From NCBI RefSeq assembly GCF_001426585.1, contig NZ_LMEI01000012.1:178962-242961 (forward strand): a DNA stretch of 64,000 nt. Reading direction: 5' to 3'. The notes beneath the pieces were generated by a model. The model was not told the origin of the DNA, did not search any database, and saw nothing but the letters and a program-made list of their open reading frames with translations. Source of the DNA: Streptomyces sp. Root431. GTDB lineage: Bacteria; Actinomycetota; Actinomycetes; Streptomycetales; Streptomycetaceae. The translations under genes and the position numbers were made by a program. Below are positions 6,762 through 25,399 of the stretch, in pieces. Within the stretch, counting starts at the first letter, position 1; every line of letters begins with the position of its first letter.

Positions 6762-7211
6762 TCAGTCGCGCGCGGTGCGCCTCGCCTCGACGGCGGCGGC
6801 GTCGTCGGCGCCCTCCTCGTCGGGCTCCAGGAACTGGTTCACGACCTTGACGAAGACGCCCAGGCGCTCGTCGGGCACGCCGAGCCAGCGAGCGAAGTCC
6901 TCCATGGTCGGCTGCCAGTCGTTGGGCGGCAGCAGGTCCGCCGCGAGCGGCAGCTCCTCGGGGGTGACCCGGCCGGACCGGATCAGCATGTCCCGGACGG
7001 AGACCCCGAGGAGCGGGGCGATCCGGCGCATGGTCTCCAGGTCGGGCATGCTCTGGCGCTGCAGCAGGCGCGTCACGGCGGCGCGGTGCACGCCGGCCTC
7101 GTCCGCGATCCGGGACTTCCCGCCGCCGCGGGGGCTGTCGATGTCGTAACCGCGCGCTCTCATCAGGCCTTCGACCCAGCCCGCGAATTCGTCGAGCCCT
7201 TGACTGGTCAT
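6762..7211 (-). CDS. XRE-family transcriptional regulator of the tail island
   Basis: 149 aa. An N-terminal helix-turn-helix is visible at about residues 30-75 (KSRIADEAGVHRAAVTRLLQ then LETMRRIAPLLGVSVRDMLI), the Cro/CI-type arrangement in which the second helix contacts DNA. The C-terminal half is acidic, has no autoprotease (LexA/CI S24) motif, and may be for dimerisation. ATG 7211 follows AAGGGAG. It is transcribed divergently from the Wbl/zinc-ribbon/HTH cassette, and the 255-bp intergenic region carries several palindromes. I infer a local repressor or activator of the phage-tail genes; the target is not proven. Confidence 0.85.
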   Translation of the reverse strand: MTSQGLDEFAGWVEGLMRARGYDIDSPRGGGKSRIADEAGVHRAAVTRLLQRQSMPDLETMRRIAPLLGVSVRDMLIRSGRVTPEELPLAADLLPPNDWQPTMEDFARWLGVPDERLGVFVKVVNQFLEPDEEGADDAAAVEARRTARD

Positions 7212-7300: not shown

Positions 7301-7347
7301 TCGTGTCGAATCGATGAAGACCCAGCCAGGACATCCCCACAAGTTTG

Positions 7348-7365
7348 TTGCGCGCTCGCACGCAA
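7348..7365. promoter_or_regulatory. TTGCGCGC-TC-GCACGCAA palindrome (candidate operator C)
   Basis: An 18-bp near-perfect palindrome with arms TTGCGCGC and GCACGCAA around TC. The same motif recurs at 9708-9725 upstream of the first tail gene. It lies about 100 bp before the Wbl-like start, in the shared regulatory region. Confidence 0.5.
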
Positions 7366-7466
7366 CGTGTAAGGCTGCTCATCGCCGCACTCGCCGGCCC
7401 CCTGAGCCCCAGAAGCCCCACCGGCCCCATGGACGCCCCGGTGGCCCCGGACCGTGGAGAAACCTC

Positions 7467-9626: not shown

Positions 9627-9961
9627 GGGCGGCTCCCTCGGTTCGGTGGCGGCCAACCTATCGAGCGGGTCGTTCCCGGACTCCGGGAGATCCCCTCACC
9701 GTTCTAGTTGCGTGCGCGCACGATCGCTGTCACAGTTGGTGCAGCGGCGGAGCTGCGCCCGCAGGACGGGACGCGGCTCCGCCGTCCGCCGTCCGGGCGC
9801 GCTGCCGCGCCCCGCCCCCCTCCCGCCGGAGCGCCCCGGACGGCAACCCGTCCCGCCCACTCGGTCGGGACACCGTCCGCCCGAGTGGCTGGCACCCGGT
9901 CCGCCCGCCCCGGGCGGCACACCCGTCCCGCTGTCCCTCCCCTCTCCCGAGGAGAACCGTC
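9627..9961 (+). promoter_or_regulatory. control region upstream of the tail operon
   Basis: 335 bp without a gene. It holds palindrome D (9708-9725) and a long GC-rich untranslated region. An 8-bp inverted repeat (CCACTCGG 9857-9864 / CCGAGTGG 9881-9888) lies within that region. GAGGAG sits just before the first tail ATG. I could not place -10/-35 boxes with confidence. Confidence 0.5.
9708..9725. promoter_or_regulatory. TTGCGTGC-GC-GCACGATC palindrome (candidate operator D)
   Basis: It contains the perfect 12-bp palindrome CGTGCGCGCACG (9711-9722) inside an 18-bp motif like that at 7348-7365. Its position about 240 bp before the first structural gene makes it a candidate binding site for an island regulator (XRE, Wbl or small HTH). 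Confidence 0.5.
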
Positions 9962-10372
9962 ATGACCACTCCCCCGAGTGCTTTCCCGGACGTCGAGAAG
10001 CTGGTCGTCGACGTCCTCAAGGCCGACCCCGCCCTGGCCGGCGCCACGATCGCGGTCAACGCGCCCGCCGGCTTCGACGGCACGACGAGCGCCGTCCTGG
10101 TGAACCGCCGCGGCGGCGCCTGGATCGGCGACCAGCACGTCGACATGCCGCTGATCGAGTTCGAGGTGTACGGGCCGAGCAAGACCGCCGCCCACGTCCT
10201 CGCCAACGCGGCCCGGCGGTGCCTGCTCGCCACCATCGGCAAGCGCATCGGCGCCAACAACGTCGTCCACGACGTGGAGGAGCAGGACGGGCCGCGCTGG
10301 CTGCCCGACTACCTCTACCGGGGCGCCAACCGCTACCTCTGCGTGATCCGCCTCTCCCTGAGCGTCTTCTAG
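9962..10372 (+). CDS. tail terminator-like protein
   Basis: 136 aa. Size, position directly before the tube gene, and the alpha/beta pattern (FPDVEKLVVDVLKADPAL at the N-terminus; VHDVEEQDGPRWLPDY near the end) fit siphophage tail-terminator or tail-completion proteins, which form a ring capping the tube and normally dock the head. I recognise this from position and general shape rather than from a strong signature. ATG 9962 follows GAGGAG. It is the first gene of the structural cluster; no head-completion, portal or capsid gene precedes it. Confidence 0.6.
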   Translation: MTTPPSAFPDVEKLVVDVLKADPALAGATIAVNAPAGFDGTTSAVLVNRRGGAWIGDQHVDMPLIEFEVYGPSKTAAHVLANAARRCLLATIGKRIGANNVVHDVEEQDGPRWLPDYLYRGANRYLCVIRLSLSVF

Positions 10373-10486
10373 CCGCTCCCCGAGCGTCCTCCCGGCACTC
10401 CCCGAGCGTCGTCCCGGCGCTCCCCCGGGCGTCCCCCCGAGCCGCTCCGGCTCCCCGACGGGCGACGGACGCCCGCCCCACAGACC

Positions 10487-10510
10487 AGGCCTCGCCGACC
10501 GGCGGGGCCT
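10487..10510 (+). terminator. hairpin between tail terminator and tube genes
   Basis: AGGCCTCGCCG (10487-10497) can pair with CGGCGGGGCCT (10500-10510) with one G-U pair, followed by TTG. It probably reduces or processes transcripts ahead of the tube gene. Directly upstream (10376-10440) are degenerate direct repeats of CTCCCCGAGCGTC. Confidence 0.55.
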
Positions 10511-10582
10511 TTGCCGTACCCGGACCGGATGTCCGGGGACGGTCGCCCTCTCAACCCGAGCAACCCAAGGAGAAACACCACC

Positions 10583-11194
10583 ATGGCTGGAAACAACTCT
10601 GCCGAGATCCGCGTCGCAGGTACCGGCAAGCTCTACGTGGCCGACGCCGGCACCCCCGCCCCGGCCACCTTCGGCACCGACACCGCCGTCGACTGGTCGG
10701 GCGCGGGCTGGAAGGACCTGGGCTTCACCTCCGGCGACGGCGTCACCTTCTCCAAGAAGGACAAGCTGGAGGCCATCGACTCGTGGCAGTCGGTCTCCCC
10801 GGTGCACTACATCTACTCGGCCCGTGACCTCTCGCTGAAGTTCTCGATGCTCCAGTTCAACGAGGACACGCTGCCGTTCTTCATGGGCGGCGGCGCCGTA
10901 AAGGCGGAGCCGACCCCCGCGGTCGACACGTACCGCTACGAGATCGCCGAGCGCCCGTTCGCCGATGTGCGCGCCCTCGGCCTGGAGTTCACCGACGTGA
11001 AGGCCGGTGGCACGACCGCGGTCACGTACCGCTTCATCATCCCGCGCGGCCAGGTCACCGCCTCCGACGACATCAAGCTGGCCCGCAAGGCGGCCTCCCA
11101 GCTCGGTGTCACCTTCTCCGCCATGTCGAAGGGCGACGGCAAGCCGCTGGCGACCTTCCTCATGAAGGACAGCCAGTACTCCGCGACCGTCTGA
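10583..11194 (+). CDS. major tail tube protein
   Basis: 203 aa. The sequence fits a siphophage tail tube subunit: an N-terminal arm (AEIRVAGTGKLYVADAGTPAP), a beta-rich body (WSGAGWKDLGFTSGDGVTFSKKDK), and a final hairpin region (TYRFIIPRGQVTASDDIKLARKAA...VTFSAMSKGDGKPLATFLM) of the kind seen in actinophage major tail proteins. It would polymerise into stacked hexamer rings forming the tube. ATG 10583 has AAGGAG 10 nt upstream. It is followed by a very stable hairpin and the chaperone pair, the standard siphophage order tube - chaperones - tape measure. Confidence 0.85.
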   Translation: MAGNNSAEIRVAGTGKLYVADAGTPAPATFGTDTAVDWSGAGWKDLGFTSGDGVTFSKKDKLEAIDSWQSVSPVHYIYSARDLSLKFSMLQFNEDTLPFFMGGGAVKAEPTPAVDTYRYEIAERPFADVRALGLEFTDVKAGGTTAVTYRFIIPRGQVTASDDIKLARKAASQLGVTFSAMSKGDGKPLATFLMKDSQYSATV

Positions 11195-11207
11195 TCCTTC
11201 TCCACCC

Positions 11208-11238
11208 GGGGCGGGACGGCCGACCGCCGTCCCGCCCC
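11208..11238 (+). terminator. strong hairpin after the tube gene
   Basis: A perfect 13-bp stem (GGGGCGGGACGGC / GCCGTCCCGCCCC) with a 5-nt loop, 14 nt after the tube stop. A partial terminator or mRNA-stabilising element here would raise tube protein over downstream assembly factors. Confidence 0.7.
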
Positions 11239-11282
11239 ACCCCTCTCCTCTTCACTCACTCGAACAAGGAGTACGCATCACC

Positions 11283-11573
11283 ATGGCCCGTTTCGACGTC
11301 AACGCCGCCCGCGCCCAGCGCCAGGAGGCCCACGGCCGCACCTGGTCCTTCGAGCTGGACAACGAGAGCTACACCCTGCCCACCGAGCTGAGCCGCGCCA
11401 CCGCCAAGGCGCTGCGGATGCTCGACGACAACGACGTGGACGGCCTGCTCGCGCTCCTGATGGGTGAGGAACAGTTCGCACGCTTCGAGCACCACGACGT
11501 CACCGTGCAGGACATCGCCGCCATCCTGGAGGCCTACGGCAAGGAGACCGGGCTCGGCCTGGGGGAAGACTGA
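11283..11573 (+). CDS. tail assembly chaperone, upstream (G-type) part
   Basis: 96 aa. It begins MARFDVNAARAQRQEAHGRT and contains FELDNESYTLPTELSRATAKAL and LALLMGEEQFARFEHHDVTVQDIAAILEAYGKE, the pattern of actinophage tail assembly chaperones (the lambda gpG role), which bind the tape measure during tube growth. ATG 11283 follows AACAAGGAG. It ends at TGA 11571-11573 immediately after a run of five G residues at which a -1 frameshift would extend it into the next reading frame. Encoded between tube and tape measure, as in siphophages. Confidence 0.8.
   Translation: MARFDVNAARAQRQEAHGRTWSFELDNESYTLPTELSRATAKALRMLDDNDVDGLLALLMGEEQFARFEHHDVTVQDIAAILEAYGKETGLGLGED
11561..11567 (+). other. candidate -1 programmed frameshift site
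   Basis: The heptamer G GGG GAA lies four codons before the upstream chaperone stop. In the P site GGG re-pairs perfectly after a -1 shift; in the A site the tRNA for GAA would pair with GGA through one U-G contact. The -1 frame is open from here to 12004 and has no ATG, GTG or TTG before 11789, so the downstream domain can only be made in full by frameshifting. Confidence 0.65.
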
Positions 11574-12004
11574 GCCTCGTCGAGTTCGTCGAAGAACACG
11601 CCGAGGCCCTTGAAGCGGACTTCCTCCGCTACTACGCCACCGATCTGCTCGACTGGCACCGCGGCGAGCTCTCCAGCCGCCGGGTCCTGGCGCTGATCAA
11701 GCACCTGCCGCGGGACAGCGCCGTCCAGCGTGAGCTCCACGGCGAGGCCGCCGAATGGTCGATCACCGATCACCTGCTGGCGGCCACGGTGGACCATCTC
11801 GCCGTCGCCAACTGGATGTTCGTCTGTGTCAACACGGGCGAGGACGGCGACACGCCCGAGGCACCGAAGCCCGTCCCCCGTCCGGGAAACGAGGACGAGG
11901 ACGAGGACGAGGGCCGGGAGGGCGCGGACCGGAACGGACCGAACACGCCCGCGGGAGAGGGCGAAGGCGTTTCTCCCCATGCCATCGCCCGCTTCTTCGG
12001 GTGA
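11570..12004 (+). CDS. tail assembly chaperone, frameshift extension (T-type)
   Basis: Read in the -1 frame from 11564, this adds about 145 residues to the upstream chaperone, giving a fusion of about 240 aa. The new part starts LSLVEFVEEHAEALEADFLR and contains YYATDLLDWHRGELSSRRVLALIKHLP, the usual T-domain content in Streptomyces phages (tube-binding partner). It ends in a charged, repetitive tail (EDEDEDEGREG). No independent start or ribosome site is visible at the head of this frame; GTG 11789 would give only a 71-aa fragment. By analogy with lambda G/GT, a small fraction of ribosomes would make the fusion. Confidence 0.72.
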   Translation: MSLVEFVEEHAEALEADFLRYYATDLLDWHRGELSSRRVLALIKHLPRDSAVQRELHGEAAEWSITDHLLAATVDHLAVANWMFVCVNTGEDGDTPEAPKPVPRPGNEDEDEDEGREGADRNGPNTPAGEGEGVSPHAIARFFG

Positions 12005-12011
12005 TCCCGCG

Positions 12012-12053
12012 GCCCCCGGAGCCCCTTCCCGTCAGGGAGTGGGCTCCGGGGGC
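12012..12053. terminator. bidirectional terminator between convergent genes
   Basis: A perfect 13-bp stem (GCCCCCGGAGCCC / GGGCTCCGGGGGC) between the chaperone frame and the convergent minus-strand gene, overlapping the last codons of the latter. It separates the front half of the tail cluster from the back half. Confidence 0.8.
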
Positions 12054-12808
12054 GCTTCCTGTGCTCGCTCGGCGGTCATGTCCTCCGTGAGTGCCCTGGC
12101 CCGGTCGGACAGCCGGCGTCCCTTGCTCGCGCGCGACTCAGGTACGGCCGGTTCGGGCTCGGGCTCGGGTTCCGGTTCGCGGCGCTCGGCGGGCGATGCC
12201 GGCTGGATCGGCACGCCGGCGAGCGGCGGGACGATCGGACGTCCGCCCTTGCCGCGGACGACCTTCCGTACCGGCTGGGCGTTGCGGCGGGTACGGCTCT
12301 CCTGAGCAGTCAGCAGGACCTCGGGTTCCGCGTCCGGTTCGGGTCCGGTCCGGTGCTCCGGTTCGGGCTCGGCGCGCTGGTCGAACAGCTCGCGCTCCTT
12401 GCGGACCCGCTCCTCGGCCTCGACGACGGCCGCGGGCGGTTCGAGGAGGCGGGCGAAGGGCAGCGCGATGACCCGGGCGCCCTCCTGGCCGACGTCCGTA
12501 CGGCGCTGGGGGCGGCGGATTCCACGCGCGTCACCCTGGCCCTGCGCGTAGGCGTCGGCGACGCGCTTCTCGTACTCCCTGCGGATCCGGGGGAGTTCGT
12601 CCGACACCGCCTCGGCCCAGCCGGCGGTGAACGCGGCGGTCTCCCGGCGGTCGATCTCGGCCCGCGGGATCACGACGAGTTCGTCGGGCGCGTACCCGGC
12701 GAGGTGGACGAGCTCCGAAAGGTAGGCGAACAGGTGGGGCAGATCAGGGTGGGCGTCGAGCCAGTCGACTACCCGTTCCCCCCGATTGGCGCCCGGCTCC
12801 GTTTCCAT
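12032..12808 (-). CDS. uncharacterised protein with RETxAxxAGW motif
   Basis: 258 aa, no recognised family. Residues about 1-75 are a helical domain (WLDAHPDLPHLFAYLSELVHLAGYAPDELVVIPRAEIDRRETAAFTAGWAEAVSD, quoted here only as the region); its core RRETAAFTAGW recurs in the 70-aa protein encoded at 13113. The rest is low-complexity and charged, with EPEPEPEPEP repeats, KGRRLSDRARALTEDM near the end, and no membrane segment or signal peptide. ATG 12808 has GGAAGG about 12 nt upstream. It is the only minus-strand gene inside the structural cluster. Regulator, scaffold or immunity-type roles are all possible; none is shown. Confidence 0.65.
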   Translation of the reverse strand: METEPGANRGERVVDWLDAHPDLPHLFAYLSELVHLAGYAPDELVVIPRAEIDRRETAAFTAGWAEAVSDELPRIRREYEKRVADAYAQGQGDARGIRRPQRRTDVGQEGARVIALPFARLLEPPAAVVEAEERVRKERELFDQRAEPEPEHRTGPEPDAEPEVLLTAQESRTRRNAQPVRKVVRGKGGRPIVPPLAGVPIQPASPAERREPEPEPEPEPAVPESRASKGRRLSDRARALTEDMTAERAQEAPPEPTP

Positions 12809-12995
12809 GCGTCAGTACTGCCTTCCGCCCCCTGGGGTCCCCGCGCGCCCCTCGCGCCCCTCGCGCCCCGAAGTGGTCGGCCCCAGGAATGCGTCCTCCA
12901 GGTTACCCGGTCGAACGCATGACCCGATCAAGGGCCAACCCGCCCGGGGAGCGCCGAATGAGACACGCCGTCAGCAGTTTCCCGCTCGACAAACA

Positions 12996-13011
12996 TCGAA
13001 CAGATGTTCCA
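12996..13011. promoter_or_regulatory. LexA (SOS) box 1
   Basis: TCGAAC-AGAT-GTTCCA matches the actinobacterial LexA consensus TCGAAC-N4-GTTCGA at 11 of the 12 defined positions. It lies in the 304-bp gene-free region 12809-13112 between two divergent genes, 24 bp (start to start) from box 2. Confidence 0.75.
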
Positions 13012-13019
13012 CACTCTGT

Positions 13020-13035
13020 TCGCACAGTAGTTCGA
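13020..13035. promoter_or_regulatory. LexA (SOS) box 2
   Basis: TCGCAC-AGTA-GTTCGA matches the same LexA consensus at 11 of 12 defined positions. It is 77 bp before the ATG of the 70-aa gene that heads the tape-measure/fibre/lysis half of the cluster. Two adjacent boxes suggest cooperative repression relieved by DNA damage. Confidence 0.75.
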
Positions 13036-13112: not shown

Positions 13113-13325
13113 ATGACCCAGCAGGCCGAGGCATCGCGACCGCAGATCCCTCTCCAGGACCGCCTCCGCCAGCTCCTCGACGGACCCGCCGCCCTCGACA
13201 AGAGAGCGCTGCTCGGCACCTTGTACGCCGAGGTGTCCCGCCGCGAGACCGTCGCGTACGCGGCCGGCTGGAACGACGCCCTCGCGACGGCGCGCCGCGG
13301 CTCCCGCAGGGCCGAGGACGCCTAG
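13113..13325 (+). CDS. small protein with RETxAxxAGW motif
   Basis: 70 aa, all-helical and soluble: LQDRLRQLLDGPAALDKRALL, then LYAEVSRRETVAYAAGWNDALATARR. The RRETxAxxAGWxxA core is shared with the divergent 258-aa protein encoded at 12032-12808, so the pair are probably distant paralogues or interaction partners. ATG 13113 has GGAAGG about 10 nt upstream. It is the first gene behind the two LexA boxes and is followed by a strong terminator-like hairpin before the tape-measure genes. Function unknown. Confidence 0.7.
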   Translation: MTQQAEASRPQIPLQDRLRQLLDGPAALDKRALLGTLYAEVSRRETVAYAAGWNDALATARRGSRRAEDA

Positions 13326-13351: not shown

Positions 13352-13377
13352 AGCCCCCGCCGGGACCGGCGGGGGCT
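13352..13377 (+). terminator. intrinsic terminator
   Basis: AGCCCCCGCCGG and CCGGCGGGGGCT form a 12-bp stem followed by TTT. If efficient it would make the 70-aa gene the main product of the SOS promoter; read-through is needed for the tail genes behind it unless they have another promoter. Confidence 0.75.
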
Positions 13378-13418
13378 TTTCGGCGCTTGGCCGTCACCGG
13401 CCGGAAGCGGAGTAACCC

Positions 13419-14378
13419 ATGGCAGACGTAACAACGGAGGATCTCTCGATCCAGATCGCGGGCCTCCGGCACTATCTCTCGAAGATCGACCATGCCCCGC
13501 TGCCCACGACCGAGTGGATGAAGCAGCAGCTGGCGCCCGTCAACAAGCTGATCGAGGAGCTCAAGGCACAGCAGGACAAGGTCGCCGAGGAGGTCGTCAA
13601 GCCCACCTGGGAACAGGTCATGGAGAAGCTGGGCCTCGGACCGGTCGCCGAGATCATCAAGAAGGGCATCGAGGGGGGCATCGGAGCCGCCCTCATCGCT
13701 GGCATCGTCGCCCTCGGCGGCGTCATCGTCCCCCTCCTCATGATCGCGCTCGGCGCCTTCGTGGTGTTCCAGCTGCAGAAGTGGCACGCCGGCAGGAACG
13801 CCAACAACGAGACGGTCGGCATGCGTCCCGACGGCAGCTTCGGCCGACGGAACTTCAACGACATCCGGAACGAGCGCAACGGCGTCGCCGGCGGCGGCAT
13901 CGCCGACCTCCCGGCGAACGCCAACTTCGACGCCCTGCGCAACCAGCTCACGCTGCTGAACCCGCACCTGGAGACGTTCAACAAGCACGCCCCCGACTTC
14001 GTCACGAACTTCAAGAAGCTGCCGTCCGAGGGCAAGGCCACCAAGGCGGCGAAGGGCGTCAAGGCCGTCGCCGAAGCCGTCGAAGGCGTCAACCACCAGG
14101 CGATGCCCCTGGTCGCCAGCGGCATGGGCAAGATCAACGGCGCCGTGAAGAACTCGGACCCCAAGAAGACGGCCAGGTTCGCCGACGGCATCGGCAAGCT
14201 CAAGCTCGCCATGACCGGCCTCGACGTGGACAAGGTGCCCAAGGCCGGGACCTTGGGGCAGGCCGCCGACGCCGCCCACCGGCTCGCCGAGAAGACCGGG
14301 ACCCTCGCGCAGAAGATGCGCGACTTCGCCCGGGAGGTCAACACCATCAACCAGGAGCTCGGCGGCGCCACCACCTGA
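13419..14378 (+). CDS. tape-measure-region membrane protein
   Basis: 319 aa. An N-terminal coiled-coil region (about 1-65, LSKIDHAP... KLIEELKAQQDKVAEEV) is followed by a long hydrophobic stretch (about 83-120, AALIAGIVALGGVIVPLLMI then ALGAFVVFQLQ) and a helical, Lys/Ala-rich C-terminus (KATKAAKGVKAVAEAVEGVN). This matches the look of tape-measure fragments, which hold a coiled coil and membrane-active segments. It lies where a tape measure should start, right after the chaperones in phage order. No peptidase or transglycosylase motif is seen. It could be the N-terminal part of a split tape measure or a separate pore-forming component. Confidence 0.65.
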   Translation: MADVTTEDLSIQIAGLRHYLSKIDHAPLPTTEWMKQQLAPVNKLIEELKAQQDKVAEEVVKPTWEQVMEKLGLGPVAEIIKKGIEGGIGAALIAGIVALGGVIVPLLMIALGAFVVFQLQKWHAGRNANNETVGMRPDGSFGRRNFNDIRNERNGVAGGGIADLPANANFDALRNQLTLLNPHLETFNKHAPDFVTNFKKLPSEGKATKAAKGVKAVAEAVEGVNHQAMPLVASGMGKINGAVKNSDPKKTARFADGIGKLKLAMTGLDVDKVPKAGTLGQAADAAHRLAEKTGTLAQKMRDFAREVNTINQELGGATT

Positions 14379-14408
14379 TCCCCCGTCACCACGAAAGGAG
14401 GAACACCC

Positions 14409-15608
14409 ATGTCTCTCGTCAGAAACCTCAAGAACGCTTCCACGTCGCTCGGCAACCTCAAGACCCAGGCGTCCGGCGCCGGCACCTCGGTCAAGAAGGT
14501 CGGCGACGCCGGCAAGGCGGCCTCCGGCCACCTGAAGAACCTGCGCACCAACGCCCAGGGCTCCACCGGCCAGCTCAAGAACCTGAAGACCGCCTCGGAC
14601 CAGGCCGAGCGCGCCATGAAGAAGGCCGGCGACACCGCTCAGTCGGCCGGCGGAAAGCTCGGCAAGTACGAGTCGGGCGCAGGCAAGGCCGCCAAGGGCC
14701 AGGACAAGCTCAACAAGTCCATGAAGGGCAACATCCTCGCCCGGCTCCTAGAACTCTTCATGCCGCTCATCGAGAAGATCGTCGAGATGGCGATGCGCTC
14801 GAAGACGATGCAGACGGTCATGAAGAAGGCGTTCGACGCCATCAAGACCGTCATCAGCGCCGTCATGAAGGCCATCGGGCCGATCATGAAGAAGGCCGGC
14901 GACCTGATCAAGACGGTCTGGAACGGCATCAAGAGCGCCATCTCCACCGTCGTCAAGGCGGTCGCGACGGTCATCAAGACCTACGTGAACATCTGGAAGT
15001 CGGTCATCACCACGGTGATGAACGCGATCAAGACGGTCATCAGCGGGGTCTGGAAGGGCATCAAGGCCGTCATCACGCCGGTCGTCGACTGGATCAAGGA
15101 CGCGATCCCGAGGGCGTTCACCGCCGTCAAGGACAAGATGTCGTCCATCTGGAACGGCCTCAAGGACATCGCGTCCCGGGCGTTCGACGGCATCAAGAGC
15201 GGCGTGAAGGGCCCGATCAACTCCGTGATCGGCCTCATCAACTCGATGATCGGCAGCCTCAACCGCGTCAAGGTCAGCGTCCCCGGATGGGTCCCGGTCG
15301 TCGGCGGCAAGACCTTCGGCGTCAACCTGCCGACGATCCCCATGCTCGCCACCGGCGGTGTCGTCATGCCCCGCCACGGCGGTGTCCCGGCGATCCTCGC
15401 CGAGGCCGGCGAGGCCGAGGCCGTCCTCCCGCTCTCCAAGCTCGACCGGCTGCTCGCCCTCACCGCCCAGCGCGCCCGCACGGCCGCCGGCCCCCAGCTC
15501 GGCCGGGAGGGCGCCGGACTGCACATCGAGCACTACCACGCCGCCCGCGGCAGTGACCCGCAGTCCACGGCGGACGCCCTGATGTACCTGGCGAAGGCAC
15601 GCGGATGA
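14409..15608 (+). CDS. tape measure protein, first of two related copies
   Basis: 399 aa. The N-terminal 110 residues are Lys/Ala/Gly-rich coiled repeats (LKNASTSLGNLKTQASGAG; STGQLKNLKTASDQAERAMK). The middle is a series of hydrophobic heptad-like repeats (IKTVISAVMKAIGPIMKKAG, VVKAVATVIKTYVNIWKSV). The C-terminal domain (about 275-399, GPINSVIGLINSMIGSLNRV ... TFGVNLPTIPMLATGGVVMP) is typical of actinophage tape measures and recurs in the next gene. It would lie in the tube lumen and set its length. ATG 14409 has AAAGGAGG upstream; its stop overlaps the next start (ATGA). Confidence 0.82.
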   Translation: MSLVRNLKNASTSLGNLKTQASGAGTSVKKVGDAGKAASGHLKNLRTNAQGSTGQLKNLKTASDQAERAMKKAGDTAQSAGGKLGKYESGAGKAAKGQDKLNKSMKGNILARLLELFMPLIEKIVEMAMRSKTMQTVMKKAFDAIKTVISAVMKAIGPIMKKAGDLIKTVWNGIKSAISTVVKAVATVIKTYVNIWKSVITTVMNAIKTVISGVWKGIKAVITPVVDWIKDAIPRAFTAVKDKMSSIWNGLKDIASRAFDGIKSGVKGPINSVIGLINSMIGSLNRVKVSVPGWVPVVGGKTFGVNLPTIPMLATGGVVMPRHGGVPAILAEAGEAEAVLPLSKLDRLLALTAQRARTAAGPQLGREGAGLHIEHYHAARGSDPQSTADALMYLAKARG

Positions 15609-16858
15609 GTGCCGTCGCCGCCATGCCGAACTTCCGCGGGACCGTCGGACCGATCGACAACCTGCTGCGGGGACTCGGCTCGGTGGGCGGCTCGCTCAAG
15701 CAGCTCAAGCAGGGCGTCCAGCAGGCCTCGAGGGGGGTCGGCGGCCTCCACACCGCGGCCCGTAACGCCGGGACCACCCTGCGGCCCCTCGGCCAGGGCG
15801 CGGCCGCCGCCGGCGGCTCCATCGACAGGATCCGCCGCTCCACCGCGCCCGCCGGCGTCAAGCGGATCGGCACCGCGGCCGGCAAGGCCCGTACCGCCGC
15901 GGGCAAGATCGGCACCGGTGTCGGCGCGATCCTCGCCCTCCTCCTTCCGATGCTCCCCGTCACCGACGTCATCGCCGGACTGATGGGCACCTTCGGCACC
16001 GTCATGACCGTCGCCTCCGTCGCGATGACCGCCGTCAACGTCGCCATGCGGGCCAACCCGCTCGGCTTCGTCGTCGGCATCATCGTGCCCATCGCGGCGG
16101 CCATCATCGAGTTCGCGCTGAACTCCGAGACCGGCCAGCAGATCATGCAGCAGGTCTTCGAGTACGCCCTCGCGGTCATCGAGGAGATCTGGGCGTTCCT
16201 CGCCCCGTTCGTCGAGATGATCGGGACGGCGGTCGGGACCTACTTCGAGGGGTACCTGGCCGTGATCACCGGAGTGATCACCGGCATCGGCGTCGTCATC
16301 GGCGGGGTGTCGAAGCTCGGCTCCGCCGTCTCCTCAGCGTGGAACGCGCTGAGCGGGATCGCCTCGGGCGCGATGGAGGGCGTCAGGAACGCCGTACGGC
16401 CGGTGGTCTCCTGGATCACCGAATCCGTCCCCGGCTTCTTCCGGACCGCGAAGGACGCGGTCTCCGGGGCCCTGCGCGGGATCGGCGACCTGATCGAGGG
16501 CGCCCTGAGCACCGTGATCGGCGTCGTCAAGGGACCGATCAACGGCCTGATCGCCTTCGTGAACTGGATCATCGACGGGCTCAACAAGCTCAGCTTCGAG
16601 ATCCCCCTCACCGGCAAGAAGTTCGGCGTCGACCTCGACAAGATCCCGATGCTCGCCGACGGCGGCATCGTCTTCCCGGGCGGCGACGCGGACGAGTACC
16701 GCATCGACCCGCTCTCCCAGCTGGAGAACCGCCGCGTCCCGGCCCTCACCGAGCCGCCCCGGCAGCCGCACCGCATCCGGGAGTTCCACGAGGCGCCGGG
16801 CGCCGGGCCCCGGTCGACCGCCGAGGACCTGCTCTTCCTCGCGGCCGCCAACCACTGA
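15605..16858 (+). CDS. tape measure protein, second related copy
   Basis: 417 aa. After a Gly/Ala-rich N-terminus it has two strong hydrophobic blocks (about 115-185: ILALLLPMLPVTDVIAGLMG and FVVGIIVPIAAAIIEFAL). A C-terminal domain (about 300-417, GPINGLIAFVNWIIDGLNKL ... KFGVDLDKIPMLADGGIVFP, then RSTAEDLLFLAAANH) parallels that of the preceding protein (QSTADALMYLAKARG). The two are therefore diverged duplicates in series with coupled translation. One may set length while the other forms the membrane pore; the sequence does not say which. Confidence 0.8.
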   Translation: MSAVAAMPNFRGTVGPIDNLLRGLGSVGGSLKQLKQGVQQASRGVGGLHTAARNAGTTLRPLGQGAAAAGGSIDRIRRSTAPAGVKRIGTAAGKARTAAGKIGTGVGAILALLLPMLPVTDVIAGLMGTFGTVMTVASVAMTAVNVAMRANPLGFVVGIIVPIAAAIIEFALNSETGQQIMQQVFEYALAVIEEIWAFLAPFVEMIGTAVGTYFEGYLAVITGVITGIGVVIGGVSKLGSAVSSAWNALSGIASGAMEGVRNAVRPVVSWITESVPGFFRTAKDAVSGALRGIGDLIEGALSTVIGVVKGPINGLIAFVNWIIDGLNKLSFEIPLTGKKFGVDLDKIPMLADGGIVFPGGDADEYRIDPLSQLENRRVPALTEPPRQPHRIREFHEAPGAGPRSTAEDLLFLAAANH

Positions 16859-16866
16859 TCGGCGCC

Positions 16867-16924
16867 CCGCGCGCAGAACGGCGGCCCGCGCGACCAGCCG
16901 CGCGCCGGCCGCGCGCAGAACGGC
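16867..16924 (+). repeat. 16-bp direct repeat in tape-measure/Dit spacer
   Basis: CCGCGCGCAGAACGGC occurs at 16867-16882 and again at 16909-16924. It lies in a 163-bp non-coding spacer. It may be a recombination footprint or a GC-rich spacer; no hairpin with a T-run is evident. Confidence 0.6.
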
Positions 16925-17021
16925 CGCGTGCCCGCTGCCCGGCGACCGCCCGCCACCGATCGGCCGGCCCTTCGCCGACCCACCCCGCCGACCTCCCATC
17001 AGAAGTGAGGTGACGGCCCCC

Positions 17022-17945
17022 ATGGCCGTGAACACCACCGCATACGCCGGAAACACCTACACCGCCGACCTCGCGCCCGGCTCCCTGATCACCCAGGACG
17101 GGCAGATCCAGTGGGCCGGGCTTCTCATCGGGCCCGGCACGCCGTTCAACGTCGACAAGTCCGGTCTGTCGGGCTGGGAAGACCTGCCCGAGTACGACTC
17201 CTCCGACGCCGACCGGCCGACCTCCCACGGAGCCTGGCCGGGCTCCCGGTTCGCCAAGCCCCGCAAGGTCGGCGGCACGATCGTGCTGATCCCGGAGTAC
17301 AACCAGGCCCCCGAGGCCATCCGCGCCCTGCGCCAGGCGCTCGCCCTCCTCGACGAGGAGCGCTGGCTCACGGTCCGGCTGCACGGCGAACTGCTCGCCG
17401 TACGCGCCCGGATCGCCCAGCGCGTCGTCCCCGCCGACCAGGGCTTCGCCACCCAGGGCAGCTCCCGCATGTCCGTCCAGTGGCTGGCGTCCGACCCCCG
17501 CCGGTACGGCGTCACGGAGCAGATGGTCAGCACGACGGCCCCGCAGCCCGAGCGCGGTCTCGAATGGCCGCTGACCTGGCCGCTCACCTGGGGCGAGGCG
17601 AAGAGCACCGGTGACGCCGTCGCCGTGAACACCGGCTCCGCGCCCTGCCACCCGGTGATCGTCTTCCGCGGCCCGTGCTCCGTCCCCACCGTCACCGAGC
17701 GGACCACCCGCCGCCGGCTGCGGTACGCGATCGACCTGGCCGCCGGCGACGAACTCGTCATCGACACCGGCGCGGGCACGGTCATGCTCAACAACTCGGC
17801 GTCGCGGCGGCACACCGCGATGGCCGACTCCAACCCGGAGGAGCTGTTCGCGCTCGAACCGGGCGGTACCGAGCTGTCCTTCCGGCCGGACTCGGCCACC
17901 CCCGAGGCCACGATGACGGTCCGCTGGCGCAGCGCCGAGTGGTGA
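17022..17945 (+). CDS. distal tail protein (Dit-like)
   Basis: 307 aa. It opens with beta-rich segments (LITQDGQIQWAGLLIGPGTP) and the GSRFAKPRKVGGTIVLIPEY stretch found in siphophage Dit N-terminal ring domains. A linker (SSRMSVQWLASDPRRYG) leads to a C-terminal galectin-like part (VIDTGAGTVMLNNSASRR, TMTVRWRSAEW). Dit forms the ring at the tube tip that connects tube, hub and fibres. I chose ATG 17022, which has GAAGTGAGGTG 8-15 nt upstream, over GTG 17010, which would overlap that ribosome site. The order tape measure - Dit - fibres/hub is that of a siphophage tail tip. Confidence 0.82.
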   Translation: MAVNTTAYAGNTYTADLAPGSLITQDGQIQWAGLLIGPGTPFNVDKSGLSGWEDLPEYDSSDADRPTSHGAWPGSRFAKPRKVGGTIVLIPEYNQAPEAIRALRQALALLDEERWLTVRLHGELLAVRARIAQRVVPADQGFATQGSSRMSVQWLASDPRRYGVTEQMVSTTAPQPERGLEWPLTWPLTWGEAKSTGDAVAVNTGSAPCHPVIVFRGPCSVPTVTERTTRRRLRYAIDLAAGDELVIDTGAGTVMLNNSASRRHTAMADSNPEELFALEPGGTELSFRPDSATPEATMTVRWRSAEW

Positions 17946-18267
17946 CCGGCCGCCTCTGATCCCTGGCCGGGCCTGACCTCGGGCCGGGCCTGACCTCAGG
18001 CCGGGCCTGCACCGATCCCGCGGCCGGCCCTGCACCCGCCGGCACTGATCCCCGGCCGGGCCGCTGTTCCCTGCCCAGAACCTGGCGGGCCCGGCCCCTG
18101 CCCAGAACCCGGCCCGGGTCTGTCCTGATGCCCGGGTCTGTCCTGTTGCCGGGCCTGCCCTGATGCCCTGGCCTGCCTCAGTGCCCGGCCGGGCCCGTTG
18201 CCCGGCCGGCCCTCCCCCGATCCCCACCCCTGACCGCACCACCCCGACCGTCACGGAGAGGTGACCC
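17946..18267 (+). repeat. GC-rich degenerate repeats before the fibre genes
   Basis: 322 bp without a gene. It is built of imperfect copies of GGCCGGGCCTGACCTC and CCTGCCCAGAACC-type units (GGGCCTGACCTC twice, CTGCCCAGAACC twice, CCCGGGTCTGTCCTG twice). It ends with GGAGAGGTGACCC before the first fibre ATG. Such tracts can be recombination-prone; no terminator is evident. Confidence 0.6.
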
Positions 18268-19464
18268 ATGACCGTACGCGCCGCTTGGCTCCAGACCACC
18301 GGCCAGACCCGCGAGGACACCCGGCTCACCCTCGCCGCCCTGCTCACCCCCAGTGGCCAGAGCGCCGAGGAGACCCCGCTGCGCTCGCGCCCGGGCATCG
18401 TGCCGGGCGGTCTCGTCCTCACCGGCAGCTCGCCCATGCAGTGCACCATCGGCACCGGCCGGGCGATCGTCCAGGGCAAGGACACCGCCCAGGGCGCCTA
18501 CCTCGTCGCCGTCACCTCCCCGGAGTCGCTCACCATCGCCGACGGCGACCCGATGTACGACCGGATCGACCTGATCGAGCTGGCCGTCGTCGATGACGCC
18601 TACGACCGCACCGGTGCCACGGAGGCGGTGGTGCGCCTGGTCAAGGGCGTCCCCGCCGTCTCCCCCACGGCCCCGGCGAGCGGACCGGGCAGCACGATCC
18701 CGCTCTACTCGGTCCTGGTGCCGAAGGGCACCTCGGCCGGCACCGGCGGCATCCCGTGGACCACCTCGGCGGTCACCACCCTGCACTGGCCGGTCGTGGC
18801 CCTCGGCGGCATCCTGCCCGCCAGCGGCTTCAAGGGCGCGTACGTCGGCCAGTACCGCGACACCGCCGGACTCCTCCAGCGCTGGGACGGGACGACCTGG
18901 GTCTCGTACCCCAAGCCCGTCGGCGGCATCGCCCCGAGCACCACGACGAACGGCGCCTACACCGGCCAGTACCGGGACAACGGCGGCGGACTGCAGCGCT
19001 GGAACGGTTCTTCCTGGCAGTACGTCGAAGGCGCCTCGACCGTGCTGTTCAGCGCCACGCAGTGGCTGACCACCCAGGCGCAGAGCGTCCCGCCCAACAC
19101 CTGGACCGTGCTCAACCTGCCCACCGTCGAGGTCGACGACGCCACCGGCTGGACCACGAGCAACACCTACACAGTGCCGCGCACCGGCTGGTGGCGGATC
19201 TCCGCACACGCCACCTGGGCCAACGAGTCCCAGACCGGCATGCGCGGCGCCCGCGTCTCGGTCGCCGGCGTCGGACAGGGCCGGCTGACCTGGCTCACCC
19301 CCGCCGGCAACGGCGCCATATCCGTGGGCGGCAGCGGCCTGATCAGGCTCGTCGCCGGCGAGACGCTCCAGCTCTCCGGCTACCAGAGCCACACCGCGGC
19401 GATCAAGACCCTCGGCGGCTCGGGCTACGCCTGCAACCTCTCCGCCGAATGGATCAGGTCCTGA
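18268..19464 (+). CDS. tail fibre / receptor-binding protein 1
   Basis: 398 aa. Residues 1-185 form an N-terminal domain shared with the next two genes (W-L-Q-T-T-G-Q-T-R-E-D-T-R start, GRAIVQGKDTAQGAYLVAV, DRIDLIELAVVDDAYDRTGA, GGIPWTTS). Two short repeats follow (GAYVGQYRDTAGLLQRWDG and GAYTGQYRDNGGGLQRWNG), then a unique tip of about 140 residues (VDDATGWTTSNTYTVPRTGW, a TNF/C1q-like beta look). The N-terminal domain probably docks on the tail tip and the C-terminus would recognise the target cell surface. ATG 18268 follows GGAGAGG. Confidence 0.78.
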   Translation: MTVRAAWLQTTGQTREDTRLTLAALLTPSGQSAEETPLRSRPGIVPGGLVLTGSSPMQCTIGTGRAIVQGKDTAQGAYLVAVTSPESLTIADGDPMYDRIDLIELAVVDDAYDRTGATEAVVRLVKGVPAVSPTAPASGPGSTIPLYSVLVPKGTSAGTGGIPWTTSAVTTLHWPVVALGGILPASGFKGAYVGQYRDTAGLLQRWDGTTWVSYPKPVGGIAPSTTTNGAYTGQYRDNGGGLQRWNGSSWQYVEGASTVLFSATQWLTTQAQSVPPNTWTVLNLPTVEVDDATGWTTSNTYTVPRTGWWRISAHATWANESQTGMRGARVSVAGVGQGRLTWLTPAGNGAISVGGSGLIRLVAGETLQLSGYQSHTAAIKTLGGSGYACNLSAEWIRS

Positions 19465-19493
19465 CACCCGCGGACGCCGCACCGTCCCCCGAC

Positions 19494-19540
19494 TCCTCGA
19501 ACACCTCAACCTCCTCGAACACCTCGAACACCTCGAACGG
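19494..19540 (+). repeat. tandem CTCGAACAC repeat
   Basis: Four to five copies of a 9-bp unit CTCGAACAC in the spacer between fibre 1 and fibre 2. They are head-to-tail, so they do not form LexA-type inverted sites; the last copy leads into GGAG, the ribosome site of fibre 2. Confidence 0.7.
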
Positions 19541-19549
19541 AGCAACCCC

Positions 19550-20842
19550 ATGAACCTGCGCAGCAGCTGGGTCGCCGAGACCGGCCAGACCCGCGAGGAC
19601 ACCCGCCTCACCCAGACCGGCGTGACGACGCTGACCAACCCCGTCCAGGTGCGCTCCGGCGTCCTGCCGGGCTCGTACACCGGCGAGCACCGGCTCTCCG
19701 GCTTCTGGACCTTCGGCGCCTCCGCCATGACGGCGACCGTCTCCGAGGGCCGGGCCGTGATCCAGGGCGAGATCTCCCAGGGCGTCTACCCGGTGACCCT
19801 GCCGAGTTCCGTGGACGTCACCTTCGAACCGGGCGACGCCCAGTACGGCCGCATCGACCTGATCGTCATCCGGATCTACGACAACCTCTACGACTCCTCG
19901 AACCGCAACGAGGCGAAGGTCGAGATCATCAAGGGCGTCCCCGCCCAGGCTCCGCAGGCGCCCGCCGTCCCGGCGCGCAGCCTCGTGCTGTACGAGGTGA
20001 CCGTCCCGGCCACCGTCAGCGCGGGCAACGGCGGCATCCCGTGGGCGACCGCCCTGAAGGACCTGCGCACCCCGGTCGTCGCCCTCGGCGGCATCCTCCC
20101 GGTCGAGGGGCCGGTCCACGGGGGCGCCTACCCGGGCCAGTACCAGGACTCCGGCGGCGCGCTCCAGCGCTGGGACGGCAGCGCCTGGGTGCCGTACCCG
20201 TCCGCGCTGGGCGGCATCGCCCCCGCGGGCACGGTCTCCACCGCCAGCTACACGGGTCAGTACCGCGACGCCGGCGGCAGCCTCCAGCGGTGGGACGGCG
20301 GCGCCTGGGTGCCGATCGGCGGCATCGCCCCGGCCGGCACGATCACCAACGGCACCTACGCGGGCCAGTACCGGGATGCCGGCGGCACCCTCCAGCGCTG
20401 GAACGGCACGGTGTGGGGGCCGGCGGTGCCCGGGACGTCGTTCGTCGACAACAGCGACTACGGCGACACCACGTCGATCACGTGGACCTCGACGCTCGCG
20501 GGGCGCGCGACGAACCCGCTCACGCTCAACTTCGTCGCCCCGGCCTCGAAGGCCGTCGTGGTCAGCTTCGGCTGCCGCCTGAAGTCCCACAGCGCCGACC
20601 ACTACGCGTTCATGGCGCTCAAGCTCACCCAGGGAGCCACGGTCGTCGGCGACCTCGACGACGAGTACGCGACGCTCGCCGCCAGCCCGCACCTGATCTC
20701 GGTGTCCACCACGCGCCGGCTGTCGAACCTGACCGCGGGCGCGACGTACAACCTCACGGCCTTCTACCGGATCATCACCAACTCCACGGGCCTCAAGGCC
20801 GGTTACGACAACACGTTCATCAAGGTCGACCCGCTTCCGTAA
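19550..20842 (+). CDS. tail fibre / receptor-binding protein 2
   Basis: 430 aa. It has the same N-terminal domain as its neighbours (SSWVAETGQTREDTRLT, GRAVIQGEISQGVYPVTLP, GRIDLIVIRIYDNLYDSSNR, GGIPWA). Three repeats of the form G-x-Y-x-GQY-x-D-x-GG-x-LQRW follow, at about residues 190, 228 and 266, one more than in the other two fibres. The unique C-terminal tip (VDNSDYGDTTSITW ... FYRIITNSTGLKAGYDNTF) has no resemblance to the tips of fibres 1 or 3. ATG 19550 is preceded by CGGAGC. Likely a trimeric fibre; target unknown. Confidence 0.78.
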   Translation: MNLRSSWVAETGQTREDTRLTQTGVTTLTNPVQVRSGVLPGSYTGEHRLSGFWTFGASAMTATVSEGRAVIQGEISQGVYPVTLPSSVDVTFEPGDAQYGRIDLIVIRIYDNLYDSSNRNEAKVEIIKGVPAQAPQAPAVPARSLVLYEVTVPATVSAGNGGIPWATALKDLRTPVVALGGILPVEGPVHGGAYPGQYQDSGGALQRWDGSAWVPYPSALGGIAPAGTVSTASYTGQYRDAGGSLQRWDGGAWVPIGGIAPAGTITNGTYAGQYRDAGGTLQRWNGTVWGPAVPGTSFVDNSDYGDTTSITWTSTLAGRATNPLTLNFVAPASKAVVVSFGCRLKSHSADHYAFMALKLTQGATVVGDLDDEYATLAASPHLISVSTTRRLSNLTAGATYNLTAFYRIITNSTGLKAGYDNTFIKVDPLP

Positions 20843-20874
20843 CCGCCGCCCGCCACCACCTCCCGGGAGAACCC

Positions 20875-22011
20875 ATGACCTTGCACACCGGTTGGCTCGC
20901 CACCTCAGGACAGACCCGCCAGGGCACCCGCCACATCTCCGTCGGCGCCACCACCCCGGCCGCTCCGCTCACCGCCCGCTCCGGCATCCTGCCCGGCACC
21001 GGCGACGGCAAGTTCCGCGTCGGCGGCCTGTGGATGAGCGGCAACGGCCCGATGACCGCCACCGTCTACGCCGGCCGGGCGGTCGTCCAGGGGCCGGCCG
21101 TCCAGGGCACCTACCCCGTCGTGCTCGACCAGGACACCGTCGTCACCTTCGCCGACGGCGACCCGCTGAACGCCCGGATCGACCTCGTCGTCCTCCGCGT
21201 GTACGACGACCAGTACGACAGCTCGAAGCGGAGCGAGGCCGCCATCGAGATCATCAAGGGCACCCCGTCCGCCGCCCCCGTGGCCCCGGCGGCGCCCCCG
21301 GTCTCCCTCCCCCTGTTCAGCGTCAAGGTGGTGGCCGGCGCCTCCGCCGGCTCCAACGGCATCCTCTGGTCGGGGACCGGTATCGTCACCGACCTGCGCG
21401 TCACGACGGCGGGCGTCGGCGGCATCCTGCCCGTCTACAACAACGCGGCCGTGCCCGGCTCCTACCCGGGCCAGTACCAGGACAACGACAACGCGCACTT
21501 CCTCCAGCGCTGGGACGGCACCGCCTGGGTCGCGTACCCCAAGGAGGTCGGCGGCATCGCCGCCAACGGCACGCTGAACGCCGGCAGTTACACGGGGCAG
21601 TTCCGCGAGGCGAACGGGGTCCTCCAGCGCTGGAACGGCACCGTCTGGGCCACCTACCACCCTCCGGTGGAGGTCGAGACCGCATCGGGCTCGCTGAACG
21701 CCTACGGCGGCTGGACCGCCACCTACGCCGCGCGCCGCACCCGCGGCATCGCCACGGTCAGGATCAGCGTCACTCGCACCGGCGCCGACATCACCGCGGG
21801 CGCCAACGGCTACATCAGCGACCAGCCGATGTGCGCCCTGCCCCCCGGCTGGTTCCCGGGCGTCGCCTTCGAGGCGCTGGCCAGCGACACCATGGCCACC
21901 GGCTGCGCCAGCATCAACGCCATCGGGATGGTCACGCTGCGCTCCTGGACCCCGACCGCGATCATCCGCAACGGCGGCGTCACGTCCGTCTCCGCCACCT
22001 ACGTCCTGTAA
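20875..22011 (+). CDS. tail fibre / receptor-binding protein 3
   Basis: 378 aa. The N-terminal domain aligns with fibres 1 and 2 (TGWLATSGQTRQGTRHIS, GRAVVQGPAVQGTYPVVLD, ARIDLVVLRVYDDQYDSSKR). Two repeats follow (SYPGQYQDND-FLQRWDG and SYTGQFREANGVLQRWNG), then a unique tip of about 115 residues (GWTATYAARRTRGIATVRIS ... CALPPGWFPG). ATG 20875 is preceded by GGGAGA. The three fibres lie in a row, co-oriented, between Dit and the hub protein. Confidence 0.78.
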   Translation: MTLHTGWLATSGQTRQGTRHISVGATTPAAPLTARSGILPGTGDGKFRVGGLWMSGNGPMTATVYAGRAVVQGPAVQGTYPVVLDQDTVVTFADGDPLNARIDLVVLRVYDDQYDSSKRSEAAIEIIKGTPSAAPVAPAAPPVSLPLFSVKVVAGASAGSNGILWSGTGIVTDLRVTTAGVGGILPVYNNAAVPGSYPGQYQDNDNAHFLQRWDGTAWVAYPKEVGGIAANGTLNAGSYTGQFREANGVLQRWNGTVWATYHPPVEVETASGSLNAYGGWTATYAARRTRGIATVRISVTRTGADITAGANGYISDQPMCALPPGWFPGVAFEALASDTMATGCASINAIGMVTLRSWTPTAIIRNGGVTSVSATYVL

Positions 22012-22023
22012 GGGAGGAACGCG

Positions 22024-23124
22024 ATGGCACTCGACACCCCCTACCGGGCGATCTTCTGCGATCTGCTCTCGGACCAGACCATCGACATCCTGCCCCTGCG
22101 GGACGTCCAGTTCGACGACTACATCGGCAAGGCCGGCTCCCTCTCCGGCACCATCCCCATCCCCGACCGGGAGATCGCCACGCGCGTCCGCCAGGTCCAG
22201 GAGGGCCGCACCGCGGTCTACCTGGAGCGCGGCGGCGACCTGTGGTGGGGCGGCATCATCTGGACCAGCACGCTGCAGAGCAGCGAGCGCGGGGTGCTGA
22301 CCCTGTCCATCCAGGCCGCGACCTTCGACTCGTACGCCGCGCGCCGCCGCATCCGTACGAAGATCGACGTCACGACGCCCACCGACCAGCTGGCGATCGC
22401 CCGGAAGCTCTGGGAGGAGCTCCAGAAGCCCCTCGGCGGCAACATCTCCGTCGAGCCCGGCGAGGAGGTCTCCACGACCAAGCGGACCGCGAGCTGGCGC
22501 AAGGGCGACGAGACCCTCTACTCGGAGGCGCTCGAACAGCTCGCCTCCCTCGACGACGGCTTCGAGTACCAGATCATGGTCTACCGGGACCCGGTCGACG
22601 GGCGGCGGATCCGGCAGCTCCGGCTCGGCGCCCCCAAGATCCGTACCGGCGCCACCGATCTGGTCTTCGACCGGCCCGGCACGATCCTGTCGTACTCCTT
22701 CCCGCGCGACGCGACCCGCGGCGGCACCACCTCCATGGCGCGCGGCGCGTCGATCAACTCCAACGCCGCCGCCGAATCCCGGCCGCTGTTCTCGGGCGAG
22801 AAGGAATCCCCGCTGATCAAGGGCGGCTGGCCGCGGATCGACCTGTCCTCGGACCACAACGAGATCACCTCCCAGGCCACCCTGGAGAAGGTCGCCGACA
22901 CCGAGCTCACCCAGGCCGCCGGCGCCGTCGTGATCCCCGAGATCACCATCCGGCTCGGCGGGGTCGTCCCGCCGGCGCTGCTCGGCCGCTCCGCCCGGAT
23001 CCGGATCACCGACGAGTGGCACACCCCCGGCCTCGACGCCCGCTACCGCATCATCGGCGTCAAGGTCAGGCCGCCGGAGCGCGGCCGCCCGGACACCGCC
23101 GAGCTCTACCTTGAGGAGGCCTGA
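22024..23124 (+). CDS. tail hub / baseplate protein (Tal-like)
   Basis: 366 aa. It begins PYRAIFCDLLSDQTIDILPL with a beta-rich N-terminal domain (GKAGSLSGTIPIPDREIATR, VYLERGGDLWWGGIIWTS). It resembles actinophage minor tail proteins that form the hub below Dit (lambda J / gp27-type fold). The middle contains SIQAATFDSYAARRRIR and an inserted helical region; the C-terminus LLGRSARIRITDEWHTPGLD ... RYRIIGVKV is OB-like. No lytic domain is fused. ATG 22024 has GGGAGGAA upstream; the stop overlaps the next start (TGATG). Confidence 0.75.
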   Translation: MALDTPYRAIFCDLLSDQTIDILPLRDVQFDDYIGKAGSLSGTIPIPDREIATRVRQVQEGRTAVYLERGGDLWWGGIIWTSTLQSSERGVLTLSIQAATFDSYAARRRIRTKIDVTTPTDQLAIARKLWEELQKPLGGNISVEPGEEVSTTKRTASWRKGDETLYSEALEQLASLDDGFEYQIMVYRDPVDGRRIRQLRLGAPKIRTGATDLVFDRPGTILSYSFPRDATRGGTTSMARGASINSNAAAESRPLFSGEKESPLIKGGWPRIDLSSDHNEITSQATLEKVADTELTQAAGAVVIPEITIRLGGVVPPALLGRSARIRITDEWHTPGLDARYRIIGVKVRPPERGRPDTAELYLEEA

Positions 23125-23834
23125 TGCCCCAGCTGCCCGAGGACATCATCGACCGGCTCACCCAGATGGAGCGCCGGATCCAGGCGCTGTCCACCGCGGT
23201 CAACACCCGGCCCGCCCAGAACGAGGTCACCGACGGCGCGTTCAACGTCAGGCTGCCGAACGGCACGTCGGTCCTCCAGGTCGGCAAGTGGGACGAGGAC
23301 CCGGAGAAGAGCGAGTACGGGGTGGCGATGCGCCGCCAGACCGGCGAGCTGGCCATCGCGCTCTACAACGGCAGCGGCAGCGACACCACCCGGCAGGTGC
23401 TGCGGCTGTACGACTCGTACGGTCACGAGGTCTTCTCCGACGACATCGTCAAGGGCGGCCTCGCCCGGCCCTGGCTCGCGATGCTGCCGCCGCAGGACCT
23501 CGCCTCCGCGAACTGGCCGGCGACCACCTCGCTCAACACCTGGGCGACGATCGCCCGCTCCTACAACCCGGTCTGGCAGCCGCGGATGCGCCTGCTCATG
23601 GAGACCCGGGCCAGCGCGGGCGCGACCGGCGAGGTGAAGGTGATCATCGACGGCGCCACGCAGTTCGGCGGGGTCGTCGCCGCCGGCAGCCAGTTCGACG
23701 TCACCGACGCCATCGTCGCCGACATCACGACGCGCTTCGGCACCACCGCCAAGATCGAGATCCAGGCCCGGGTCACCAGCGCCTCCGGCACCGTCTACGC
23801 CAAGCCGGTGCTGATGTACGGCACCCAGAGCTGA
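23124..23834 (+). CDS. minor tail protein
   Basis: 236 aa. A short N-terminal coiled coil (PEDIIDRLTQMERRIQALST) is followed by beta-rich sequence (NVRLPNGTSVLQVGKWDEDP, GELAIALYNGSG, RQVLRLYDSYGHEVFSDD) and a C-terminal jelly-roll-like part (NPVWQPRMRLLMETRASAGA, VKVIIDGATQFGGVVAAGSQ). It is probably a tail-tip decoration or fibre-like protein. It is translationally coupled to the hub gene. I do not recognise a more specific family. Confidence 0.68.
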   Translation: MPQLPEDIIDRLTQMERRIQALSTAVNTRPAQNEVTDGAFNVRLPNGTSVLQVGKWDEDPEKSEYGVAMRRQTGELAIALYNGSGSDTTRQVLRLYDSYGHEVFSDDIVKGGLARPWLAMLPPQDLASANWPATTSLNTWATIARSYNPVWQPRMRLLMETRASAGATGEVKVIIDGATQFGGVVAAGSQFDVTDAIVADITTRFGTTAKIEIQARVTSASGTVYAKPVLMYGTQS

Positions 23835-23866
23835 GCAGTCCCGCCCCCATGGAGAGGAACCCCCGC

Positions 23867-24394: not shown

Positions 24395-24465
24395 CCGCTA
24401 CCCGCGCCCCACCCGTACGTCCGCCCGCCCGAGTGCGGGCCTTCTTCATGTCCGGAGGACACCAG

Positions 24466-25377: not shown

Positions 25378-25399
25378 CCCCGCACGAGAGGAGACCCCG

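Follow-up and report, generated by a model that had tools for sequence, protein, structure and literature searches.

A probable LexA operator before a small GW-motif gene within an apparently headless siphophage-type tail cluster of Streptomyces

F-type (non-contractile) tailocins such as the F-pyocins, monocin and rhizoviticin combine siphophage-type tail genes with an endolysin and are under DNA-damage control, which in the pyocins is of the PrtR/PrtN type. LexA-controlled antirepressors have been described in the Gifsy prophages (PMC3121763). In S. venezuelae, the genes vnz_21525-21550 have been called a "predicted prophage cluster", and LexA ChIP-seq peaks together with induction by mitomycin C have been published for vnz_21525 (526-fold) and for vnz_21545 and vnz_21550 (190-fold; PMC9380542, Table 1). 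DNA-damage control of this region is therefore already published in essence for S. venezuelae, where, in the passages of PMC9380542 that deal with it, the region figures merely as a predicted prophage cluster. Our literature search found no report of a Streptomyces non-contractile tailocin and no paper joining LexA, an antirepressor and a tailocin, and it found vnz_21525 named in one paper only.

The window analysed here, a stretch of 64,000 nucleotides from Streptomyces sp. Root431, holds a tail cluster flanked by rpsL/rpsG on the left (6404 and below) and by rpoC/rpoB on the right (25949 and above), genes that all lie on the minus strand and were confirmed with NCBIfam. The front half of the cluster (9962..12004, plus strand) encodes a tail terminator, a tail tube protein and a tail assembly chaperone. 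The chaperone has a possible frameshift: within 11559-12004 it ends at GGGGGAA (11561), and a check of the reading frames found that the shifted frame continues to 12004, comparable to the programmed frameshift of the siphophage G/GT genes. A divergent gene pair follows (12032-12808 on the minus and 13113-13325 on the plus strand), and after it an ORF (13419-14378) whose protein has no clear family. The back half (13419..25883, plus strand) encodes two tape-measure-like proteins, Dit, three paralogous structural proteins, a minor tail protein, an endolysin and small proteins. The leftmost part of the cluster has a WhiB-like gene (7314-7742; E 3e-7 in Pfam) and, at 8493-8738, a small gene of MerR/excisionase-like type with a weak excisionase-like match at E 0.022. 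Both were scanned in Pfam and NCBIfam; 8799-9626 was scanned in Pfam. Terminase, portal, capsid and integrase had no match among the proteins scanned, but all three paralogs gave a match to a PHROG with the label "head and packaging".

The tail tube, tape measure, baseplate and lysis genes of an F-type tailocin are all present. The gene content thus suits the name "tailocin" used in the original prediction, but no report of a particle or of killing was found in the literature searched, and the likeness to F-type tailocins is one of genes: siphophage-type tail genes with an endolysin, under DNA-damage control. The PrtR/PrtN-type control of pyocins, in contrast, was not seen here. Among phages, the SV1-like and Attoomi-like Streptomyces siphophages have Dit proteins that are 43-46% identical (best 20 of 85 records), and two relatives of Dit were found in viral contigs. 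The SV1-like and Attoomi-like records are phage genomes. The 70-aa gene of the divergent pair has no match at E 0.01 in a collection of 50,697 phage records.

Two LexA boxes had been predicted between the divergent genes, and both are present. Box 1, TCGAACAGATGTTCCA (12996..13011), and box 2, TCGCACAGTAGTTCGA (13020..13035), have no strand assigned and differ from the consensus TCGAAC-N4-GTTCGA at one position each; they lie 24 bp apart from start to start with an 8-bp gap, and 77 bp separate box 2 from the ATG at 13113, as had also been claimed. Both are located in a promoter region, as in genes of the LexA/SOS regulon, and they are the only sites in the window with one mismatch. At two mismatches or fewer the window contains nine sites, against 2.96 +/- 1.94 in 100 shuffles (nine were reached in two of them), and none of these is a LexA-type site for the front half. 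A weak third site (12912..12927, plus strand), with more than two mismatches and so below the scan threshold, aligns with the box sequence printed for vnz_21545/21550.

Relatives of the cluster were collected by a search with an alignment of Dit, which gave 80 loci (L061-L140), the best 80 of 101. Of the 47 loci whose tail clusters are most similar, 46 keep a box-2 site, and the pattern TCGNACANNNGTTCG is found in 45 of the 46 loci L061-L106; the sole miss, L102, is covered for 6.6 kb upstream of Dit, a distance exceeded by that from Dit to the box in L090, L101, L104 and L105. Both boxes occur at two mismatches or fewer in 24 of the 29 nearest loci (L061-L087, L091 and L119), with starts 23-25 bp apart; the five others are L064, L066, L070, L081 and L084. 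L119, a near relative, has two one-mismatch sites. A second group (17 of its 18 loci aligned) retains box 2, with nothing recognisable as box 1. In most of the distant clusters no box was found at the position between the divergent genes, so that conservation is not general there, a point against the explanation favoured below. When the intergenic alignment was scored in 289 frames of twelve bases, box 2 came first with 32 rows and second with 18 rows, a ranking biased toward box 2 as the rows had been chosen for carrying its pattern. Box 1 ranked 71st and 116th, and its being unexceptional in these alignments and missing from the second group counts against the explanation we favour below.

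The S. venezuelae data can be brought to bear on this locus through a genome of 8.22 Mb (G015) that contains all five of the published 14-mers tried. Three of these occur exactly once each in the whole genome, and the two 14-mers of the prophage cluster are found, among the loci examined, solely at its tail cluster, which adjoins rpoC and rpsL as it does in the window. We infer that G015 is S. venezuelae or a very near relative, and that the window locus corresponds to vnz_21525-21550. The site between rpoC and rpsL and the gene order are alike in both, and G015 has both boxes with one mismatch each in a promoter region 88% identical to that of the window. From gene order and box position, vnz_21525 would correspond to Dit in the back half, and vnz_21545 and vnz_21550 would be the divergent pair flanking the boxes. 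The positions printed for vnz_21545 (-123) and vnz_21550 (-182) fall on one identical base of G015, 8 bp from box 1, so that the tandem boxes are the better operator candidates. The box sequence printed for these two genes is a weaker neighbouring site and is neither of the two boxes, which again counts against our favoured explanation. On the G015 stretch L143 (13570, 13578 and 13655), the printed box and the printed positions differ by 77 bp, and the positions indicate the tandem boxes. For vnz_21525 the printed position lies inside its printed box; the corresponding 14-mer was found among 148 loci only in two G015 stretches (L039 and L143), and a box of this type before Dit is absent from the window's genome.

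LexA itself shows no difference between the two genomes across the 209 translated residues, and the window's genome retains the published recA 14-mer as well as the lexA-2 14-mer before lexA. A second, borderline match to LexA_DNA_bind in G015 is counted against the favoured explanation. The claim that the cluster is controlled by DNA damage is thus well supported, through LexA ChIP-seq and mitomycin C induction published for the presumed orthologs in S. venezuelae (PMC9380542); the evidence of binding and induction is that of the relative, not of the window's strain. The comparison links an apparently headless tail cluster, which many Streptomyces species keep next to rpoC, with the "prophage" genes that are most strongly induced by damage in a Streptomyces model strain, and it offers a better candidate for the actual LexA operator of the S. 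venezuelae locus. New here are the position of the boxes over the probable promoter of the 70-aa gene, the tandem operator and its spread, the hairpin behind that gene, a separate front promoter and a possible relay.

The probable promoter of the 70-aa gene (12986..13015, plus strand) consists of TCGACA (12986-12991), an 18-bp spacer and CACACT (13010-13015), and the boxes overlap it: box 1 falls within the spacer, and the expected start is covered by box 2. TCGACA is identical in 32 of 32 rows, in which the A, A and T at 13011, 13013 and 13015 are likewise invariant. The gene itself (13113..13325, plus strand) is the first behind the boxes, carries a GW motif and has no known family; its modelled protein has helices at residues 14-23 and 30-69 (mean pLDDT 75, pTM 0.48) and is too simple for a fold search. 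The divergent gene (12032..12808, minus strand) encodes a 258-aa protein with a GW motif in its N-terminal part, and over this motif the two proteins match (12 of 26 residues identical in BLASTP; 92% in hhalign).

A terminator-like hairpin with a T run (13352..13380, plus strand) lies between the 70-aa gene and the tape-measure genes. It was found behind the 70-aa gene in each of the 20 near loci, out of 29, that were aligned, the T run being weak in L085; one pair of the stem appears as U-A, U-G and C-G, and both sides are changed in 2 of 27 predicted pairs. An alignment with nine loci of the second group gave no hairpin shared by that group, and in the same alignment L086, L087 and L091 show one hairpin each by eye. 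Neither the promoter nor the hairpin was listed by a consensus scan, a point against our explanation, and that scan did not rise above shuffled sequence (0 promoters and 6 terminators found, 0.8 and 5.3 expected). Another GC-rich hairpin with TTT lies between the tail terminator and tail tube genes (10488-10512). Because the terminator-like hairpin separates the 70-aa gene from the tape-measure genes, LexA would act immediately on the 70-aa gene, and expression of the back half would have to come about by read-through, through the 70-aa product or by another route. The notion that the boxes guard the back half needs correcting to this extent: the boxes lie between divergent genes, the first rightward gene is the 70-aa gene, and a hairpin precedes the tape-measure genes. 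The front half probably has a promoter of its own.

The probable front-half promoter (9708..9736, plus strand) reads TTGCGT, 17 bp, CACAGT, with a palindromic operator at 9708-9723, and is followed by the leader GCAGCGGCGGAGCTG (9741-9755). The operator TTGCG(T/C)GC-N-CGC(A/G)CG, a CACAnT-like -10 and the leader GCGGCGGAGCTG recur in 17 of 17 rows from near and distant loci, rows that had been chosen by their matches to these same elements; the leader alone is found at one mismatch or fewer in 66 of the 80 loci. A second copy of the operator (7348..7363, plus strand) lies near the gene of an XRE-type regulator (6762..7211, minus strand; HTH_3 E 9e-6, PHROG transcriptional repressor E 1.5e-11), so that the front half probably shares its operator with this regulator gene. 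At one mismatch or fewer the operator has four sites in the assembly, two of them in the cluster, against two for a control, and both copies are present in 21 of the 27 loci L061-L087, with one copy in the other six. In G015, a two-mismatch site, TCGGACCGGCGTACGA, lies near the front operator and is not present in the other rows of the front-operator alignment.

The reading that we favour, at a probability of roughly 0.87, is that the two boxes form a LexA operator between the 258-aa and 70-aa genes, released on DNA damage, inside an apparently headless siphophage-type tail cluster. In undamaged cells, LexA bound at box 1 would occupy the promoter spacer and LexA bound at box 2 the expected start site, and it would thereby block the 70-aa gene and, given read-through of the hairpin, also the tape-measure, baseplate, structural and lysis genes. 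DNA damage would lead to RecA-stimulated cleavage of LexA and free the promoter. The terminator, tube and chaperone genes would start from the front promoter, with the operator common to the XRE-type regulator gene, and this separate promoter means that complete particles would need a second step.

We also tentatively consider a two-step switch in which LexA represses a small, non-phage GW-motif relay protein that in turn frees domesticated tail operons. The relay protein would either inactivate an XRE-type repressor acting at the front promoter or help polymerase to pass the terminators. Such a relay, a possible but less than even prospect, would add a step to the favoured reading and not contradict it. 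The arrangement resembles the Gifsy prophages in that a small gene lying apart from the structural operons carries the LexA box and, as far as a domain search can tell, the element has a putative non-peptidase repressor elsewhere; it differs from them in that those are complete prophages and this is a tail cluster with a putative relay protein (PMC3121763). The boxes adjoin a small gene that ends at a hairpin and is absent from the phage records searched. The XRE-type gene, with its operator repeated at the front structural promoter, gave a helix-turn-helix match only and no match to a peptidase domain, but its binding and its role as a repressor are putative.

Distant clusters are also consistent with a relay. 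In L109, L126, L129, L131 and L137, the box has moved: a one-mismatch site, TCGAAT-N4-GTTCGA, is flanked by the front promoter and another small GW-motif gene; L130 has a two-mismatch box in the same setting, and in L108 and L115 a two-mismatch box stands ahead of a GW-motif gene. In all, a box beside a GW-motif gene is present in at least 54 of the 80 loci (45 by alignment, L119 by eye and the eight distant ones), which suggests that the direct target of LexA is a small regulator and that LexA may act through a small relay gene. On this view, rearrangement of the tail operons would have left the LexA box next to small GW-motif genes, a part of the two-step reading that we hold as tentatively as the rest. 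The homology between near and distant small GW proteins is weak, however, with no BLASTP alignment and hhalign values of 64% over 23 columns and of 10%. The analysis points to one 70-aa gene on which the choice between direct damage control of the tail genes and a relay would turn.

Less probable is that the cluster is a decaying prophage remnant whose SOS control is a functionless relic, a view for which we see perhaps one chance in eight. The published name of the S. venezuelae region (PMC9380542) agrees with it, as does an apparent inversion in G012 that splits the cluster between the 70-aa gene and the tape-measure genes, leaving the front half, boxes and 70-aa gene on one side and the back half on the other, about 169 kb apart (L147 and L148). 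In L147, whose back half starts at about 5.3 kb, no site was found at three mismatches or fewer between 2.4 and 6.4 kb. Against decay, the tail genes are long and open, the possible chaperone frameshift has been kept, the promoters are conserved, and the rpoC-end marker lies within the stretch in 59 of 80 loci.

It is improbable that another regulator reads the 12-bp direct repeats visible in the sequence, with GTTC in register at 13006, 13018 and 13030. L076 and L084 even have an additional 12-bp unit, GTTCGCACA-like, between the boxes that gives an extra half-site, and in L076 the repeat yields a third overlapping site. A direct-repeat operator is nevertheless disfavoured, because 17 loci of the second group retain the palindrome of a TCGTACAC-W-AGTTCGA-like box 2 without the repeat, and the LexA ChIP-seq peak published for the flanking genes (PMC9380542) likewise speaks against it.

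Chance palindromes are very improbable as the source of the pair: the 6.5-Mb assembly of the window's genome (completeness 79%) has 15 sites at one mismatch or fewer against 12 for a reversed-pattern control, so that a lone one-mismatch site proves little and any single site could be due to chance, but a pair within 50 bp is expected 0.0016 times, and the conservation of box 2 in the nearest loci points the same way.

That assembly contains no perfect consensus site, and the sole perfect box seen, TCGAACCTACGTTCGA, is in L069. In L069 and L119 the leader between the boxes and the small gene is much shorter, and the small gene starts differently. The front-half leader GCAGCGGCGGAGCTG, with GGCTCCGCCG downstream, is among the most conserved stretches seen and may be an RNA element.
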